From positions 1 through 33,631 of the forward strand of contig CAUJEE010000082.1 of assembly GCA_963169215.1 (NCBI GenBank): 33,631 nt of DNA, read 5' to 3'. The position numbers were made by a program, and so were the translations under genes. The notes beneath the pieces are model-generated. The model did no database searches and had not been told where the DNA came from. It was given only the letters and a program-made list of their open reading frames with translations. The stretch is from Actinomycetota bacterium. GTDB taxonomy: Bacteria > Actinomycetota > Acidimicrobiia > Acidimicrobiales > Ilumatobacteraceae. Positions 7,469 to 22,686 of this stretch are shown here, piece by piece. The first letter of the stretch is position 1. Every line of letters starts with the position of its first letter.

Positions 7469-9325
7469 GTGACACTTGGGCCGCGCTCAGCAACCGGCGG
7501 TCGGGTGTTGGTCGCTGCCGGCGGCGCGGCGGCGGCCGACGCTCTGGCCGCAGCGGGGATGCGTAGAGGCGACTTGCTCGGGCTCGCGGCCAGCACCGCT
7601 GGAGGGGCCGGCACCCGCACCACCGGCGATCCCGTCGCCGCCGCGGAATGCACCTCTGGCCGGTCCGCAGGCGACCCGGTGGTGGTCGTCGCGACCGGCG
7701 AACTTGGTGTGGTGTGCGCTGCGGCGGACGTGGCCGAGATCGAGCGTCGCCTGGCGCCGAGGTGGGTGCTGTGGTCGACCGCCGACGCCGGCGCGTTGCT
7801 GCGCGCCGGTGTCGCTCTCGGCCGCGCCTGGCACGTCGGCGCCGTGCACCGCATTCTCCACGGCGGGTGGCGCTGCGACCCGATGCGGGTGTGGTGTTCC
7901 GGAGCTGCGCTGCCGCTGGCAGGGGCACCGATAGCCGGTCAACTCGATCTGCACGGCGCGGGTGAGGACGGCGATCCGCTCTCGCCGGTGCGCCCGGACG
8001 GCTACCTGCGAGCGGACTGGATCGACGGCGCGTGGGCCGCGTCTGCGTCTGCGGCCGCGGGCTGTGCGTGGGCCGCGCTGGCAGTGGAGGTCGCCCGCCA
8101 TCAGCAGACCGCGCTGGCCGCGCTCGCTGTCGGCGGCGATGCCCTTGCGCTCGCCCGCGCCGAGTCGACCAGCGAGTTGCTCTGCGCCGAATTGACCGCC
8201 GAAGGCCTCCCCCTGCACCTGCCTTCCGCCGAGGCCCTCATCGCCGCGCTCGTCGGCCCGCGCGCTCGCACCGAGGCCGAGGCGGCAGCAGCCCGCGCCG
8301 CGCGCGACGCCGCGGTTCTGGCCCATGTGCCAGGCAGTACCACCGATCTGCGCAATCCGGCCGACGTGAAGGCGCTGTTGCGGCGGGTGGGCATCGAGCT
8401 CGACGACACACGCGCCTGGCGGCTGGAGACCGTGCGCGACCGTCACCCGGTGGTGGAGGCGCTGTTGCAGTGGCGCAAGGCTGAGCGCATCGCCACCACC
8501 TACGGCTACGGGTGGCTCGACCAGCACGTGCGTGTGACCGGCGGCGGGCCGTTGGGACGGCTGTGTGGTGAGTGGTCGGGCAGCGACGGCGCGGCGGGAC
8601 GGATGACCGCCACCGCCGGCCTGCACAACCTGCCGGCAGAGCTGCGCGCCGCAGTGCTCGCCGAGCCAGGGCATCTGTTCGTGCGCGCCGACCTCGGGCA
8701 GATCGAGCCGCGGGTGCTCGCGGTGGTGTCGGGCGACCCCGCACTCGTCCAGGCAACACAGGCCGACGACCTGTACGCGCCGGTGGCCGCGCAGCTGCAG
8801 GTCGATCGTCCGACGGCCAAGGTGGCGGTGCTGGCGGCGATGTACGGGCAGACGAGCGGGGCCGCCGGCGAGGCTCGGCGGCGAATGGACATCGCCTATC
8901 CGGTGGCGATGGCGTTCCTCGAACAGGCGGCGCAGGCCGGCACCGAGGGGCGCGACGTGCGCACCTTCGGGGGGCGGCTGGTGCGCATGTACGACATCGA
9001 CGAAGAAGGCCGCGGGGAGCAGCGATCCGCGGCAGCCGCCCGCGGGCGCTATGCGCGCAACGCGATGGTTCAAGGCGCCGCCGCTGAGCTGTTCAAGGTG
9101 TGGGCCGTCACCGTGCGCGCCAGGGCCGCGGCGCTCGGAGCACGCATCGTGCTCTGCCTGCACGACGAGCTGTTGATCCACTGCCCGCAGGATGCGGCCG
9201 ACGATGTCGCCCAACTCGTGAGCGACTGCCTGGCCGAAGCCGCCCACCGCTGGCAGCGCGGCGCCGGAGTGCGCTTCGTCGCCGATGTGGGCGTGGTGCA
9301 CAGCTGGGCCGACGCCAAGTCCTGA
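7469..9325 (+). CDS. Family-A DNA polymerase (actinobacterial bifunctional 3'-5' exonuclease/DNA polymerase type)
   Basis: Motif A ADLGQIEPRVLAVVSGD, O-helix RPTAKVAVLAAMYG, motif C LHDELLIHCP; GTG start. Confidence 0.87.
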   Translation: MTLGPRSATGGRVLVAAGGAAAADALAAAGMRRGDLLGLAASTAGGAGTRTTGDPVAAAECTSGRSAGDPVVVVATGELGVVCAAADVAEIERRLAPRWVLWSTADAGALLRAGVALGRAWHVGAVHRILHGGWRCDPMRVWCSGAALPLAGAPIAGQLDLHGAGEDGDPLSPVRPDGYLRADWIDGAWAASASAAAGCAWAALAVEVARHQQTALAALAVGGDALALARAESTSELLCAELTAEGLPLHLPSAEALIAALVGPRARTEAEAAAARAARDAAVLAHVPGSTTDLRNPADVKALLRRVGIELDDTRAWRLETVRDRHPVVEALLQWRKAERIATTYGYGWLDQHVRVTGGGPLGRLCGEWSGSDGAAGRMTATAGLHNLPAELRAAVLAEPGHLFVRADLGQIEPRVLAVVSGDPALVQATQADDLYAPVAAQLQVDRPTAKVAVLAAMYGQTSGAAGEARRRMDIAYPVAMAFLEQAAQAGTEGRDVRTFGGRLVRMYDIDEEGRGEQRSAAAARGRYARNAMVQGAAAELFKVWAVTVRARAAALGARIVLCLHDELLIHCPQDAADDVAQLVSDCLAEAAHRWQRGAGVRFVADVGVVHSWADAKS

Positions 9326-9335
9326 CCCCCGTCAT

Positions 9336-9445
9336 CCAAGTTGGCGTTGGGCCCGGGTCCGGGCCTGCCTCAACGCCGACTTGGGCCACGCGCGATCCAA
9401 GTCGGCGTTGGGCCCGGGCCCGGGCCTGCCTCAACGCCGACTTGG
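9336..9445. repeat. Two tandem copies (49 bp each, 61-bp period) of a REP-like palindrome
   Basis: CCAAGTyGGCGTTGGGCCCGGGyCCGGGCCTGCCTCAACGCCGACTTGG at 9336-9384 and 9397-9445, between convergent genes. Confidence 0.95.
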
Positions 9446-9458
9446 GGAGAGGGGGCTG

Positions 9459-11243
<1,785 letters not shown>

Positions 11244-15926: not shown

Positions 15927-15935
15927 GGCATCACC

Positions 15936-16039
15936 CTGGTCGAGCCACCCGGTCGAGCCGCCCAATCAAGCCGCCCAATCAAGCCACCCAATCAAGCCAC
16001 CCAATCGAGCCACCCAATCGAGCCACCCAATCGAGGAGG
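15936..16039. repeat. 13-bp tandem repeat array, 8 units (CCAATCRAGCCAC-like)
   Basis: CTGGTCGAGCCAC|CCGGTCGAGCCGC|CCAATCAAGCCGC|CCAATCAAGCCAC|CCAATCAAGCCAC|CCAATCGAGCCAC|CCAATCGAGCCAC|CCAATCGAGGAGG; last unit carries the SD. Confidence 0.97.
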
Positions 16040-16044
16040 TCGCG

Positions 16045-17496
16045 ATGCGTTCACGGCATCTGCTGCTCGTCACCCTGCTCCTGGCAGCCTCCGGCTGCAG
16101 CGACTCCGACTCCCCGCAGGGCTCCGACTCAACGACGTCCGGCGCTACCTCGCCGCCGACCTCGCTCGTGGCGAGTACCAGCGCACCGGGTGGTTTCACC
16201 GTCACCAGCGCCGACGGCGACCTGGAGGTCGACGTGCCGCCGGAGGCACTGGCTGCCGACCCGGGCATCACCATCCGCCTGCTCGCCCCCGACGAGTATC
16301 CACCCGAGCTGGCCGGCGCAGCCGACAACGCCAACAGCCGCATCTACGACCTGGGACCAGATGGCCTCACCTTCGATGCGCCGGTGCGGGTGACCCGCCG
16401 CATCGACGCGGCCGCGTTCGACAACCTGGCCGACGACATGACCCCTCTGGTCGCGCTCGTCACCCGCGCGGCTGACGGCACGTACCAAGCCTTCGACGAT
16501 CTGCGCGTGATCCGCGACGGCGACGACGTCAAGGTGTCGGGCACGACGACGCACTTCTCACCCGTGGTGTCGATCAATTTGGAGCAGTACGCCAAGGGTT
16601 CGCTCGACAGCTCACACCTCGGCTACGCCACCGAGGTGGGCACAGGGCTGCAGATCGGCTACTCGTTCAGTTCCGCAGGCGGGTCGTCGCTGGTGCCACC
16701 CGACATTGTCGAGCCGATCGGCTACTCACGGTCGGAGTTGTTCGATTTCGCCGGCAAAGGCACCATGCTCGAACTCAACTGCACCCAAGCAGGCGAGGCC
16801 CGCCCACGAATCGGCGTCAGGTTCACCCTCGAGCAGACCGCTGCCGACGGGCAGGTCGGCCTTGGCGCGCTGAACACCCTGGTCAACATGCTCAACCGGC
16901 TGGAGATGGAAGTCAAGTTCGTACCCAACTTCTTGTGTCTCGATCCCGAGTCGTCGTTCCTCGGCAAGATCAATCCGATCAAGATCACTGCTGCTGTCGA
17001 CCACCCTGGCGGCACCAAGTACATCGCCGACGGGAACTTCAACGGTGGCCTGTCGGGGGCCCAGATCAAGTTCGAGCTGCCGTACGGCGTCGATGGAGCC
17101 TGGGCGGGGCTGATCGCGGACACCGACGGTGACGGCAAACCTTCGGCCGCCGACACCATGTACCAGCCATGGACAATCGCACCATACGGCGGGCAGGGCT
17201 ATGGCTACGTCGCGCCTCTCTTCGGCTATGGCAACTATTTCGTGTACATGATCGACAACACCCAATTCTCGGCCGCGCCTGCCGGCGCCTCTTTGAAGCT
17301 CGCCGACGCGATCGGGGGCTACTACGACAACTACACCGGCGCGGCGCGCTTTGAGACAGCCTTCGGCATCCTGTCCGTCGGCCAAGACCCCTTCATACTG
17401 AAGGTGGATGCCGCCGAGCAGGAGGTCGAAGCCGACACGACTGCCCAAGGCCTCGGTGAGTACAGCCTGCTAGGTGGACTGCGCATCATCTTTTGA
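16045..17496 (+). CDS. Secreted lipoprotein of unknown function with ZU5-like N-terminal segment
   Basis: MRSRHLLLVTLLLAASGCSDSDS lipobox; LEVDVPPEALAADPGITIRLL...LGPDGLTFDAPVRVTRRID resembles ZU5-type domains; SD GAGGAGG directly upstream. Confidence 0.75.
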   Translation: MRSRHLLLVTLLLAASGCSDSDSPQGSDSTTSGATSPPTSLVASTSAPGGFTVTSADGDLEVDVPPEALAADPGITIRLLAPDEYPPELAGAADNANSRIYDLGPDGLTFDAPVRVTRRIDAAAFDNLADDMTPLVALVTRAADGTYQAFDDLRVIRDGDDVKVSGTTTHFSPVVSINLEQYAKGSLDSSHLGYATEVGTGLQIGYSFSSAGGSSLVPPDIVEPIGYSRSELFDFAGKGTMLELNCTQAGEARPRIGVRFTLEQTAADGQVGLGALNTLVNMLNRLEMEVKFVPNFLCLDPESSFLGKINPIKITAAVDHPGGTKYIADGNFNGGLSGAQIKFELPYGVDGAWAGLIADTDGDGKPSAADTMYQPWTIAPYGGQGYGYVAPLFGYGNYFVYMIDNTQFSAAPAGASLKLADAIGGYYDNYTGAARFETAFGILSVGQDPFILKVDAAEQEVEADTTAQGLGEYSLLGGLRIIF

Positions 17497-20918: not shown

Positions 20919-21528
20919 GCTTGGCTCCCAACAGCTTCAGCGCGTCGCGCAACACCGCAGAGGCGTCGCTGCTGCCATCGGCCGTACCGGGCACCTCGCG
21001 CAGCACGTCGCGGACCTCCTCGACCCCGTAGCCGAGACCGATCAATGCTTCCCGCACGTCGCCCACCACTGAACCGCGACCGCCGGCCTGGCCCGCGGCC
21101 CCGGCACCCACCGGGTCGAGCAGGGGCAGGCTGAGCCTGTTGCGCAACTCGACCAACAACCGCTCGGCTGTCTTCTTGCCCACGCCCGGTACGAGCGTGA
21201 GCGCGCCAATGTCGCTGCCGGCGACGATGTCGACCAGCGCCGCCGGGGTGTGCGTGCCGAGGATGGCCAGCGCCAGGGCCGGGCCGATGCCGTGGGTGGT
21301 GATCAGCACCTGGAAGGTGTTGCGCTCGTCGCGGTGCAGGAATCCGAACAGCGTCTGCGCATCCTCTCGGATGTGGTGATGTACGTGGAGGAACACGTTG
21401 GCCCCCGGCTCGAGTTCGGCGAGCGTGCGCGGCGTGACGGCGACGTAGTAGCCCACTCCCCCCACCTCGACCAGCGCGGTGCCGTCCTCGGTGCGCTCGA
21501 GCACTGTGCCGCGTAGCGAGCCGATCAT
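20911..21528 (-). CDS. ruvA: Holliday junction branch migration protein RuvA
   Basis: [66 protein letters not shown] overlap with ruvC. Confidence 0.96.
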
Positions 21529-22061
21529 CGGGTGATCTCCGCCAGCCGACGGCGCATCGGGGCCGCAGCCAGGTAGGTGAGCGCCAGCGCCGCGGCATCT
21601 GCGGCATCGGCCGGTTTGGGCGGTGTGGATAGACCGAGGCGAGCCTGCACCATCTTCTGCACCTGGGTCTTGTCGGCACCACCCCACCCGGCCACTGCAT
21701 CCTTCACCTGGTTGGGGGTGAACTGCACCACGTCGCAGCCGAACGCCGCGGCCTCGGCCAGCGCGAGCCCGCTGGCCTGGCCGACGCTCATCGCCGTGCG
21801 CACGTTGGTCTGGAAGAACACCTGCTCGACGGCCACACCGTGCGGTCGGAACTCGCGCAACAGTGCCTGCAACTCGCGCTGCAGCTCGGCCAGCCGGTGC
21901 GGCAGCGGCTCGGCGGTCGGCGTGCGGATGACGCCCAACGCCATCGGACGCGTCTCGTGGCCGCTGGCGCGCAGCACCGCGTACCCGCAGCGGGTGAGGC
22001 CGGGGTCGATGCCGAGCACGACTGTTCCCTCGCGCTGATCGGGCGTTACAGGAGCGAACAC
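21525..22061 (-). CDS. ruvC: Crossover junction endodeoxyribonuclease RuvC
   Basis: VLGIDPGLTRCGYAVL, VAVEQVFFQTNVRTAMSVGQASGLAL; GTG start with TAGGCT 7 nt upstream. Confidence 0.96.
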   Translation of the reverse strand: MFAPVTPDQREGTVVLGIDPGLTRCGYAVLRASGHETRPMALGVIRTPTAEPLPHRLAELQRELQALLREFRPHGVAVEQVFFQTNVRTAMSVGQASGLALAEAAAFGCDVVQFTPNQVKDAVAGWGGADKTQVQKMVQARLGLSTPPKPADAADAAALALTYLAAAPMRRRLAEITR

Positions 22062-22069
22062 GCGTACGA
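22054..22069. promoter_or_regulatory. Candidate LexA/SOS box at the ruvC start
   Basis: GCGAAC-ACGC-GTACGA; 10/12 match by eye to the actinobacterial TCGAAC-N4-GTTCGA consensus, overlapping the ruvC start codon. Confidence 0.35.
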
Positions 22070-22111
22070 GCCTAGCCCGATGATGTAACCCGTTGGCGGA
22101 TCTCGCCGCTC

Positions 22112-22224
22112 AGCCGAAGTTGGCGATGAGTGGCTGCAGCGGCCCGGCTCAACGCCAAGTTGCATTCGGCCGAGCCGAAGTTGGCGATGAGTGGCTGCAG
22201 CGGCCCGGCTCAACGCCAACTTGT
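22112..22224. repeat. Two tandem copies (61-bp period) of a second REP-like palindrome related to 9336-9445
   Basis: AGCCGAAGTTGGCGATGAGTGGCTGCAGCGGCCCGGCTCAACGCCAA repeated exactly at 22112 and 22173; arms AAGTTGGCGATG / CAACGCCAACTT. Confidence 0.95.
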
Positions 22225-22236
22225 GTCTGCGGGCTG

Positions 22237-22686
22237 CTACGACAGCGACTCGACGACGGCCACCAGCTCGGCTGCCGGGCGGAAGGTGAGTCCGGCGACG
22301 GCCCGGTGGGCGTAGCGGATGATGCCCGCGCCGTCGACGATGAACGTGCTGCGCCGCGGAAACCCCATCGGACCAAGTGTTCCGTAGGCCTTGGCCACCG
22401 ATTGGTCGACGTCGGCGAGCAGCGGAAACTTGAACCCGTGCTCGTCGGCGAAGGCCTGGTGGCTGTCGAGATCCTGGGCGGAGATGGCCAGTACCTGCGC
22501 GTCGAGTTGGTCGAAGCGGGCCAGGTCGTCGTTGTACGAGTTGAGCTGCTTGGTACACACCGCCGTACCGTCACCCGGGTAGAACACGAGCACCACCGGA
22601 CGGCCGCGAAATGTGGTCAGCGAGAGCACACCCTGCGTTGAGGGCAGGGTGAAGTCGGGGGCCGGGTCGCCCACCCCCACCGTCAC
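22237..22686 (-). CDS. Peroxiredoxin (AhpC/TSA, BCP-like)
   Basis: GDPAPDFTLPSTQGVLSLTTFRGRPVVLVFYPGDGTAVCTKQLNSY. Confidence 0.9.
   Translation of the reverse strand: MTVGVGDPAPDFTLPSTQGVLSLTTFRGRPVVLVFYPGDGTAVCTKQLNSYNDDLARFDQLDAQVLAISAQDLDSHQAFADEHGFKFPLLADVDQSVAKAYGTLGPMGFPRRSTFIVDGAGIIRYAHRAVAGLTFRPAAELVAVVESLS

Follow-up and report, generated by a model that had tools for sequence, protein, structure and literature searches.

REP, BIME and REPIN sequences are short intergenic palindromes that occur in tens of copies, frequently in pairs and clusters, with a patchy, species-specific distribution and conserved mismatches in their stems (PMC3733652, PMC8266576, PMC3116915). In proteobacteria, REPs are found at most 20 bp from the 3' ends of convergent ORFs (PMC3733652). 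The stem mismatches of the E. coli REP are required for its transposase (PMC8266576). An associated Y1 transposase (RAYT/TnpAREP) is a criterion for the GTAG group of REPs only, and CGTC REPs are without a dedicated transposase (PMC3733652, PMC8266576, PMC3116915); none was found for the family described below either. In REPINs, the spreading unit is an inverted pair of REPs. MITEs are non-autonomous inverted repeats with conserved ends and a freer middle part, which are present or absent at orthologous sites. Typical MITEs are longer than 47 bp. The palindromes analysed here have a 47-bp unit. They share the traits of REP, BIME and REPIN sequences that were named first, including a location no more than about 20 bp from the 3' ends of ORFs that are convergent or co-directional, and they resemble MITEs in being non-autonomous inverted repeats with conserved ends, a freer middle part and presence or absence at orthologous sites.

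The window is the whole stretch of DNA that was analysed (33 631 nt). It corresponds to contig C82 of a 2.78-Mb host genome (249 contigs, 94% complete) and carries two doublets of the palindrome (Table 1). At the peroxiredoxin/ruvC junction, the arms were read directly as AAGTTGGCGATG (22117-22128) and CAACGCCAAGTT (22150-22161) in unit 1, and as AAGTTGGCGATG (22178-22189) and CAACGCCAACTT (22211-22222) in unit 2. In both units 21 nt separate the arms, and the units are 61 bp apart. This direct reading of arms, loops and period confirmed the paired palindrome that the sequence-only reading had placed between the peroxiredoxin 3' end and ruvC. The doublet lies 54-96 bp upstream of ruvC, the range being set by the choice of start codon. 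The arms and loops first described were correct, but the full unit was corrected to 47 bp: the outermost C/G pair is part of the family consensus, and the ruvC-side doublet has a G at its left end. Segments 22112-22162 and 22173-22223 are identical at 50 of 51 positions (repeat family D3), and the same repeat family additionally includes 9333-9383 and 9394-9444. The ruvC and lepA loci had been regarded as diverged members of one family. They are: arms, core length and period are kept, and the family occurs genome-wide and in sister species.

Table 1. Coordinates of the two doublets and their neighbouring genes in the window
Feature	Position	Strand	Remarks
47-bp palindromic unit 1, ruvC/peroxiredoxin doublet	22116-22162	.	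arms 22116-22128 and 22150-22162, core 22129-22149
14-bp spacer between ruvC/peroxiredoxin units	22163-22176	.	period 61
47-bp palindromic unit 2, ruvC/peroxiredoxin doublet	22177-22223	.	arms 22177-22189 and 22211-22223, core 22190-22210
Peroxiredoxin gene	22237-22686	-	stop codon 13 bp from unit 2
ruvC	21525-22061	-	start 22061 or 22019; co-directional downstream neighbour
47-bp unit 1, lepA doublet	9337-9383	.	between convergent polymerase-like gene and lepA
14-bp spacer, lepA doublet	9384-9397	.	period 61
47-bp unit 2, lepA doublet	9398-9444	.	top-scoring family member
lepA	9459-11243	-	stop codon 14 bp from lepA doublet
Bifunctional exonuclease/DNA polymerase-like gene	7505-9325	+	stop codon 11 bp from lepA doublet

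The family unit is a dispersed imperfect palindrome, CAAGTYGGCGNT-N23-ANCGCCRACTTG. The search pattern, in which 22 positions were defined and up to three mismatches allowed, gave 72 places in its own genome; the reversed pattern, which served as control, gave 0. Eight of the 15 genomes of the genus carry it (72, about 50, about 34, about 20, about 18, about 7, about 7 and 1 copies) and the other seven have 0. No other genome among 397 sampled from the phylum had it in multiple copies, even with the core length left free from 15 to 40; with a free core length, the outer A and T of the matches in the genus were always separated by 45 nt. The public genome records carrying the family are Acidimicrobiaceae/Actinomycetota metagenome genomes, among which G008, G010, G003, G012 and G006 belong to the window's own genus. 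Matches in other genera of the host's family were single and within coding sequence, and they appear to be coding coincidences, the conserved sequence being non-palindromic. A covariance model, the check that had been proposed, was then built from 32 units (two from the window) and run on the window and the genus genomes. On both strands of the window it recovered exactly the four units (E 5e-14 to 8e-4), with no further match up to E = 1, and its best match in 396 kb of two family-free sister species had an E-value of 0.96. Among the matches listed, 144 were in its own genome and 101, 67, 40, 36, 13, 13 and 2 in seven sisters; these are strand-matches, which count both strands and so come to roughly twice the number of places. 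E-values per genome reached 5e-12. The model had no match in seven other sister species. The family is thus multicopy, with conserved 12-13-bp arms, a fixed 47-bp length and a species-specific core. Its densest clusters were G000:C110:858-3863 (five units) and G000:C9:4886-6884 (at least six), each within 2-3 kb. The mover could be among the genes inside these clusters.

Units stand singly, as pairs or in runs of three or four, and arrays are always head-to-tail. The start-to-start distances were 57 (1), 60 (20), 61 (23), 70 (1), 71 (4) and 72 bp (4), with no other up to 100. Cores agreed at 16.7-19.5 of 21 positions within doublets versus 13-15 between loci. The spacers are 13-25 nt long and unrelated; being shorter than the repeat, they do not fit a CRISPR, which was rejected. 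Spacer heads resemble the right flank of their own doublet (p about 0.002 or less); the resemblance of spacer tails to its left flank is weaker (p 0.006-0.08). Because cores are alike within pairs and spacer ends resemble their own flanks, a pair has the look of a stretch of about 60 bp, with the palindrome at its centre, that was duplicated locally. The spacers of the recent doublets confined to G010 (L075 and L082) show no match to the flanks; part of the doublet/single differences between species are therefore probably losses.

The sister species G003 and G010, whose flanks are 88-98% identical, were compared site by site, using 1.71 Mb of about 3.7 Mb for G003. Two sites filled in G010 are empty in G003 (L059/L245 and L081/L206), where 4-6 bp are left between the convergent genes, and these two showed no target-site duplication. 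At least two sites have a doublet in G010 and a single unit in G003 (L047/L179, L075/L249). At three sites (L082/L251, L083/L204, L086/L250) the core is exchanged between flanks that are 93-98% identical: flanks and arms agree, with an aberrant right end, CTTT, common to two, and the cores match at only 7-12 of 21 positions, no better than unrelated cores, versus 17-18 where a site was retained (four sites). The explanation is either that an ancestral mixed pair contracted differently in each lineage, or that cores were swapped between copies. Locus L087 of G010 is a surviving pair with two different cores. At the lepA site, a 133-bp gap with the doublet stands against gaps of 4-51 bp without repeat in six relatives whose convergent neighbour is annotated. 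The repeat is also absent from the peroxiredoxin end of the relatives; there, a 673-aa gene without Pfam match overlaps or abuts the peroxiredoxin stop, convergent to it, and is followed by ruvC. This gene is missing from the window's own genome, which has the doublet in its place (window 21525-22686). The position upstream of ruvC, although correctly described, is therefore incidental. Because the relatives have no repeat at either site, both window doublets appear to have been gained in, or retained only by, their own lineage. Presence or absence thus differs at both window sites and between G003 and G010, as is seen for mobile elements, and this comparison of orthologous intergenic regions, also proposed by the sequence-only reading, supports its idea of a shared mobility mechanism.

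In each half, positions 1-5 and 7-10 are almost fixed, position 6 is C or T, 11 is free, 12 is T and 13 is C or G. The inner half-site has its own consensus in each species (GGSC-type in the window's genome, CCAC-type in G008, GGTCCGGAC-type in G010), so that the loop, first described as diverged, is not merely drifting. With one unit taken per locus, the two halves agreed at the free positions more rarely than randomly re-paired halves. Positions 11/37 were paired in 15% of cases (37% expected) and 21/27 in 23% (43% expected), and whole units had 15.99 pairs versus 17.05 in shuffles, below all 2000 shuffles. One of the 29 G000 units in this test was a coding coincidence, and the alignment without that unit gave the same result. 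An independent count on alignment A1 gave 26 double changes versus 39.6 expected, 500 of 500 shuffles being at least as high. The kept mismatches are about 5 bp apart (positions 6, 11, 16 and 21). TTC halves of G010 almost always have a GTG, CTG or ATG half as partner, on either side of the core. Pairing at the variable symmetric positions is below the chance level: the mismatches are kept, and this is not the covariation of an ordinary hairpin. Conservation bears on arm sequence, lengths and the presence of mismatches, not on base pairing by compensation; selection on structure in the usual sense, as first suggested, is not supported, and an RNA structure kept by compensation was rejected. 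Element polarity alone was also rejected as the cause of the mismatches: orientation by expectation-maximisation left 11/37 mixed, and the T-half of G010 swaps sides relative to the core. Selection against perfect palindromes would yield the same mismatch pattern.

The doublet is best read, with a probability of roughly 0.6, as a tandem pair of REP/MITE-like palindromic repeats that are non-autonomous and whose arms are recognised by a putative enzyme. Such an enzyme would read the arms in the form of an imperfect hairpin, or else as a pair of inverted half-sites, and would spread copies to the 3' ends of genes, where insertion would be least harmful and DNA exposed. It would cut symmetrically on the outer side of the arms, at a distance of about 6-7 nt or, a helical turn farther out, about 12 nt; fill-in of these staggered cuts on opposite strands could then give the tandem copies with their steps of 60/61 or 71/72 bp. 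The arrays would be contracted and homogenised by slippage between copies, leaving different cores in sister species. Once in place, the hairpins might act as bidirectional terminators or protect mRNA 3' ends, as a by-product. A bolder proposal, which is speculative and on the unlikely side, is a self-duplicating palindrome of a previously undescribed kind in Actinomycetota: a non-HUH/Y1 enzyme would bind the inverted arms, tolerate or require mismatches about every 5 bp and cut symmetrically outside, so that copies multiply in place by 60/61 or 71/72 bp and cores are exchanged.

For the analysis of placement, genes were called using a simple codon-usage finder written for this work. Among clusters with both neighbours called, 27 of 54 lay between convergent genes versus 18-19% of all gaps (p 3e-7). 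Most of the remaining clusters directly followed the 3' end of a single gene, and most clusters were within 25 bp of a stop. Units lie 1-20 bp behind stop codons, a distance that is often 0-7 bp in G010, and this 3'-end niche is the same as that of REPs in proteobacteria (PMC3733652). Besides gain or loss at orthologous sites and copy number changing in 60/61-bp steps, the family shows a placement directly behind stops, mostly at tight convergent junctions. The same placement, together with hairpins stable on both strands (mean energy -23.5 to -26 kcal/mol versus about -14 for shuffles), would suit bidirectional intrinsic terminators for convergent pairs, their similarity resulting from the copying of good terminators. 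This origin of the family seems unlikely, since no U-tract or T-run follows the units, a terminator needs neither identical arms across species nor an exact length of 47 nt, pairing is below that of random halves, and for it a further copy placed exactly 60/61 or 71/72 bp away would be meaningless. In addition, seven sisters have equally tight convergent junctions without the repeat. Terminators without a U-tract exist in actinobacteria, and the missing U-tract lowers membership among intrinsic terminators rather than the possible, secondary role of the repeat in termination. An Rfam search gave no family match apart from a tRNA.

Sites for a protein that binds duplex DNA at gene ends (gyrase, a nucleoid protein or another), for instance as a dimer on one helix face, were also considered. 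The half-site has invariant blocks, its degenerate positions Y6, N11 and S13 vary independently of pairing, the spacers are free in sequence, and the two classes of period, 60/61 and 71/72, are one helical turn apart. The 23-bp half-sites, which have no internal palindrome and of which the unit is an inverted pair, are nevertheless near background outside units (108 exact half-sites, nearly all inside units; control 10). Half of the genus is without the repeat, and placement is random with respect to gene function. Taken together, this makes a binding site a doubtful explanation of the family. The half-sites are not found alone, and a DNA uptake sequence was rejected on this ground.

The repeat with a putative enzyme, favoured here, may be compared with a canonical REP/REPIN whose RAYT is encoded in a genome part absent from the assemblies, or was lost once the copies had spread. 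In copy number and niche, in its doublets and conserved mismatches and in its patchy distribution, the family is REP-like. However, none of the 15 genus genomes, of which ten reach a completeness of at least 90%, contained the Y1_Tnp domain (PF01797), and the same search was positive in 5 of 14 control genomes. No bases are conserved outside the CAAG/CTTG ends, and the consensus starts with CAAGT, without a GTAG or CGTC tag. The arrays are head-to-tail and not head-to-head, and direct arrays are rare among REPs (PMC3733652). A RAYT as mover is thus very unlikely, and from these searches the mover appears not to be a Y1 transposase (IS200/IS605 or RAYT) encoded in these genomes. The IS110-type transposase (PF02371) was absent from the copy-richest genome; RAYT/IS200 and IS110 were both rejected as movers, being absent or uncorrelated. 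The search for a parent transposon covered PF01797 and PF02371 and found none, and in this, as in the lack of target-site duplication at the two filled/empty pairs, the family differs from MITEs. It also differs from REPs in its length (47 bp versus 20-40), in its head-to-tail pairs of fixed 60/61 or 71/72 bp period, in the replacement of the inner third of the unit between sister species, and in its host, an Acidimicrobiia-type actinobacterium; the text of the 2013 survey names no actinobacteria. Set beside REPINs, each 47-bp unit is itself an inverted pair of half-sites, but these are not found alone, and the clusters are direct tandems. The family behaves as a REP but lacks two features of the main superfamily, the GTAG/CGTC tag and the Y1 enzyme. 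For these reasons and because its array geometry is different, it was not assigned to a named REP family. No literature on such repeats in Acidimicrobiia was found among open-licence papers. The readings as enzyme-moved repeat, terminator, binding site and RAYT-moved REP are not fully exclusive. Phage carriage was rejected, no match to the family being found among 2.9 million viral contigs. A chance likeness between short inverted repeats of GC-rich DNA, for which nothing speaks beyond the shortness of the arms, is refuted by the pattern counts against the control, the covariance-model E-values and the fixed length and periods, and its probability is negligible.

Other palindromes were met during the searches. 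Pseudonocardiaceae bacterium YIM PH 21723 has the palindrome GAAGTTGGCGATGTTCGG-N11-CCGAACATCGCCAACTTC, 7-15 bp from stop codons (L045, L048, L050, L053, L058, L068, L074, L077, L090). Its first 13 arm bases, its 47-bp length and its location are those of the window unit, but it has perfect 18-bp arms, occurs in single copies only and belongs to a different class of Actinomycetota. As it was found through its fit to the search pattern, it may reflect either kinship or convergence with the window family. G002 has a different, imperfect 32-bp palindrome, GAACTTGAGTTCCGACGTCGGAACTTGAGTTC, at L153:4701, L155:9598, L159:18580 and L161:3982 (three of the four between convergent genes), possibly that species' own counterpart of the family. 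The family-free sister G004 had no other palindrome family in 180 kb. The window itself also contains a 13-bp tandem array, TCGAGCCACCCAA, of about nine copies (15927-16043), at or close to where the gene called at 16168-17496 starts.

Few kinds of repeat are as common in bacteria as the REP-like ones, and the present case bears on how those without a RAYT spread. It also calls for caution, as a hairpin between convergent genes should not automatically be taken for a terminator. This RAYT-less actinobacterial family allows a direct comparison, across sister species, of the filled, empty, single, double and core-exchanged states of a site, and the period steps of one helical turn, with the maintained mismatches, provide concrete handles on the putative enzyme.
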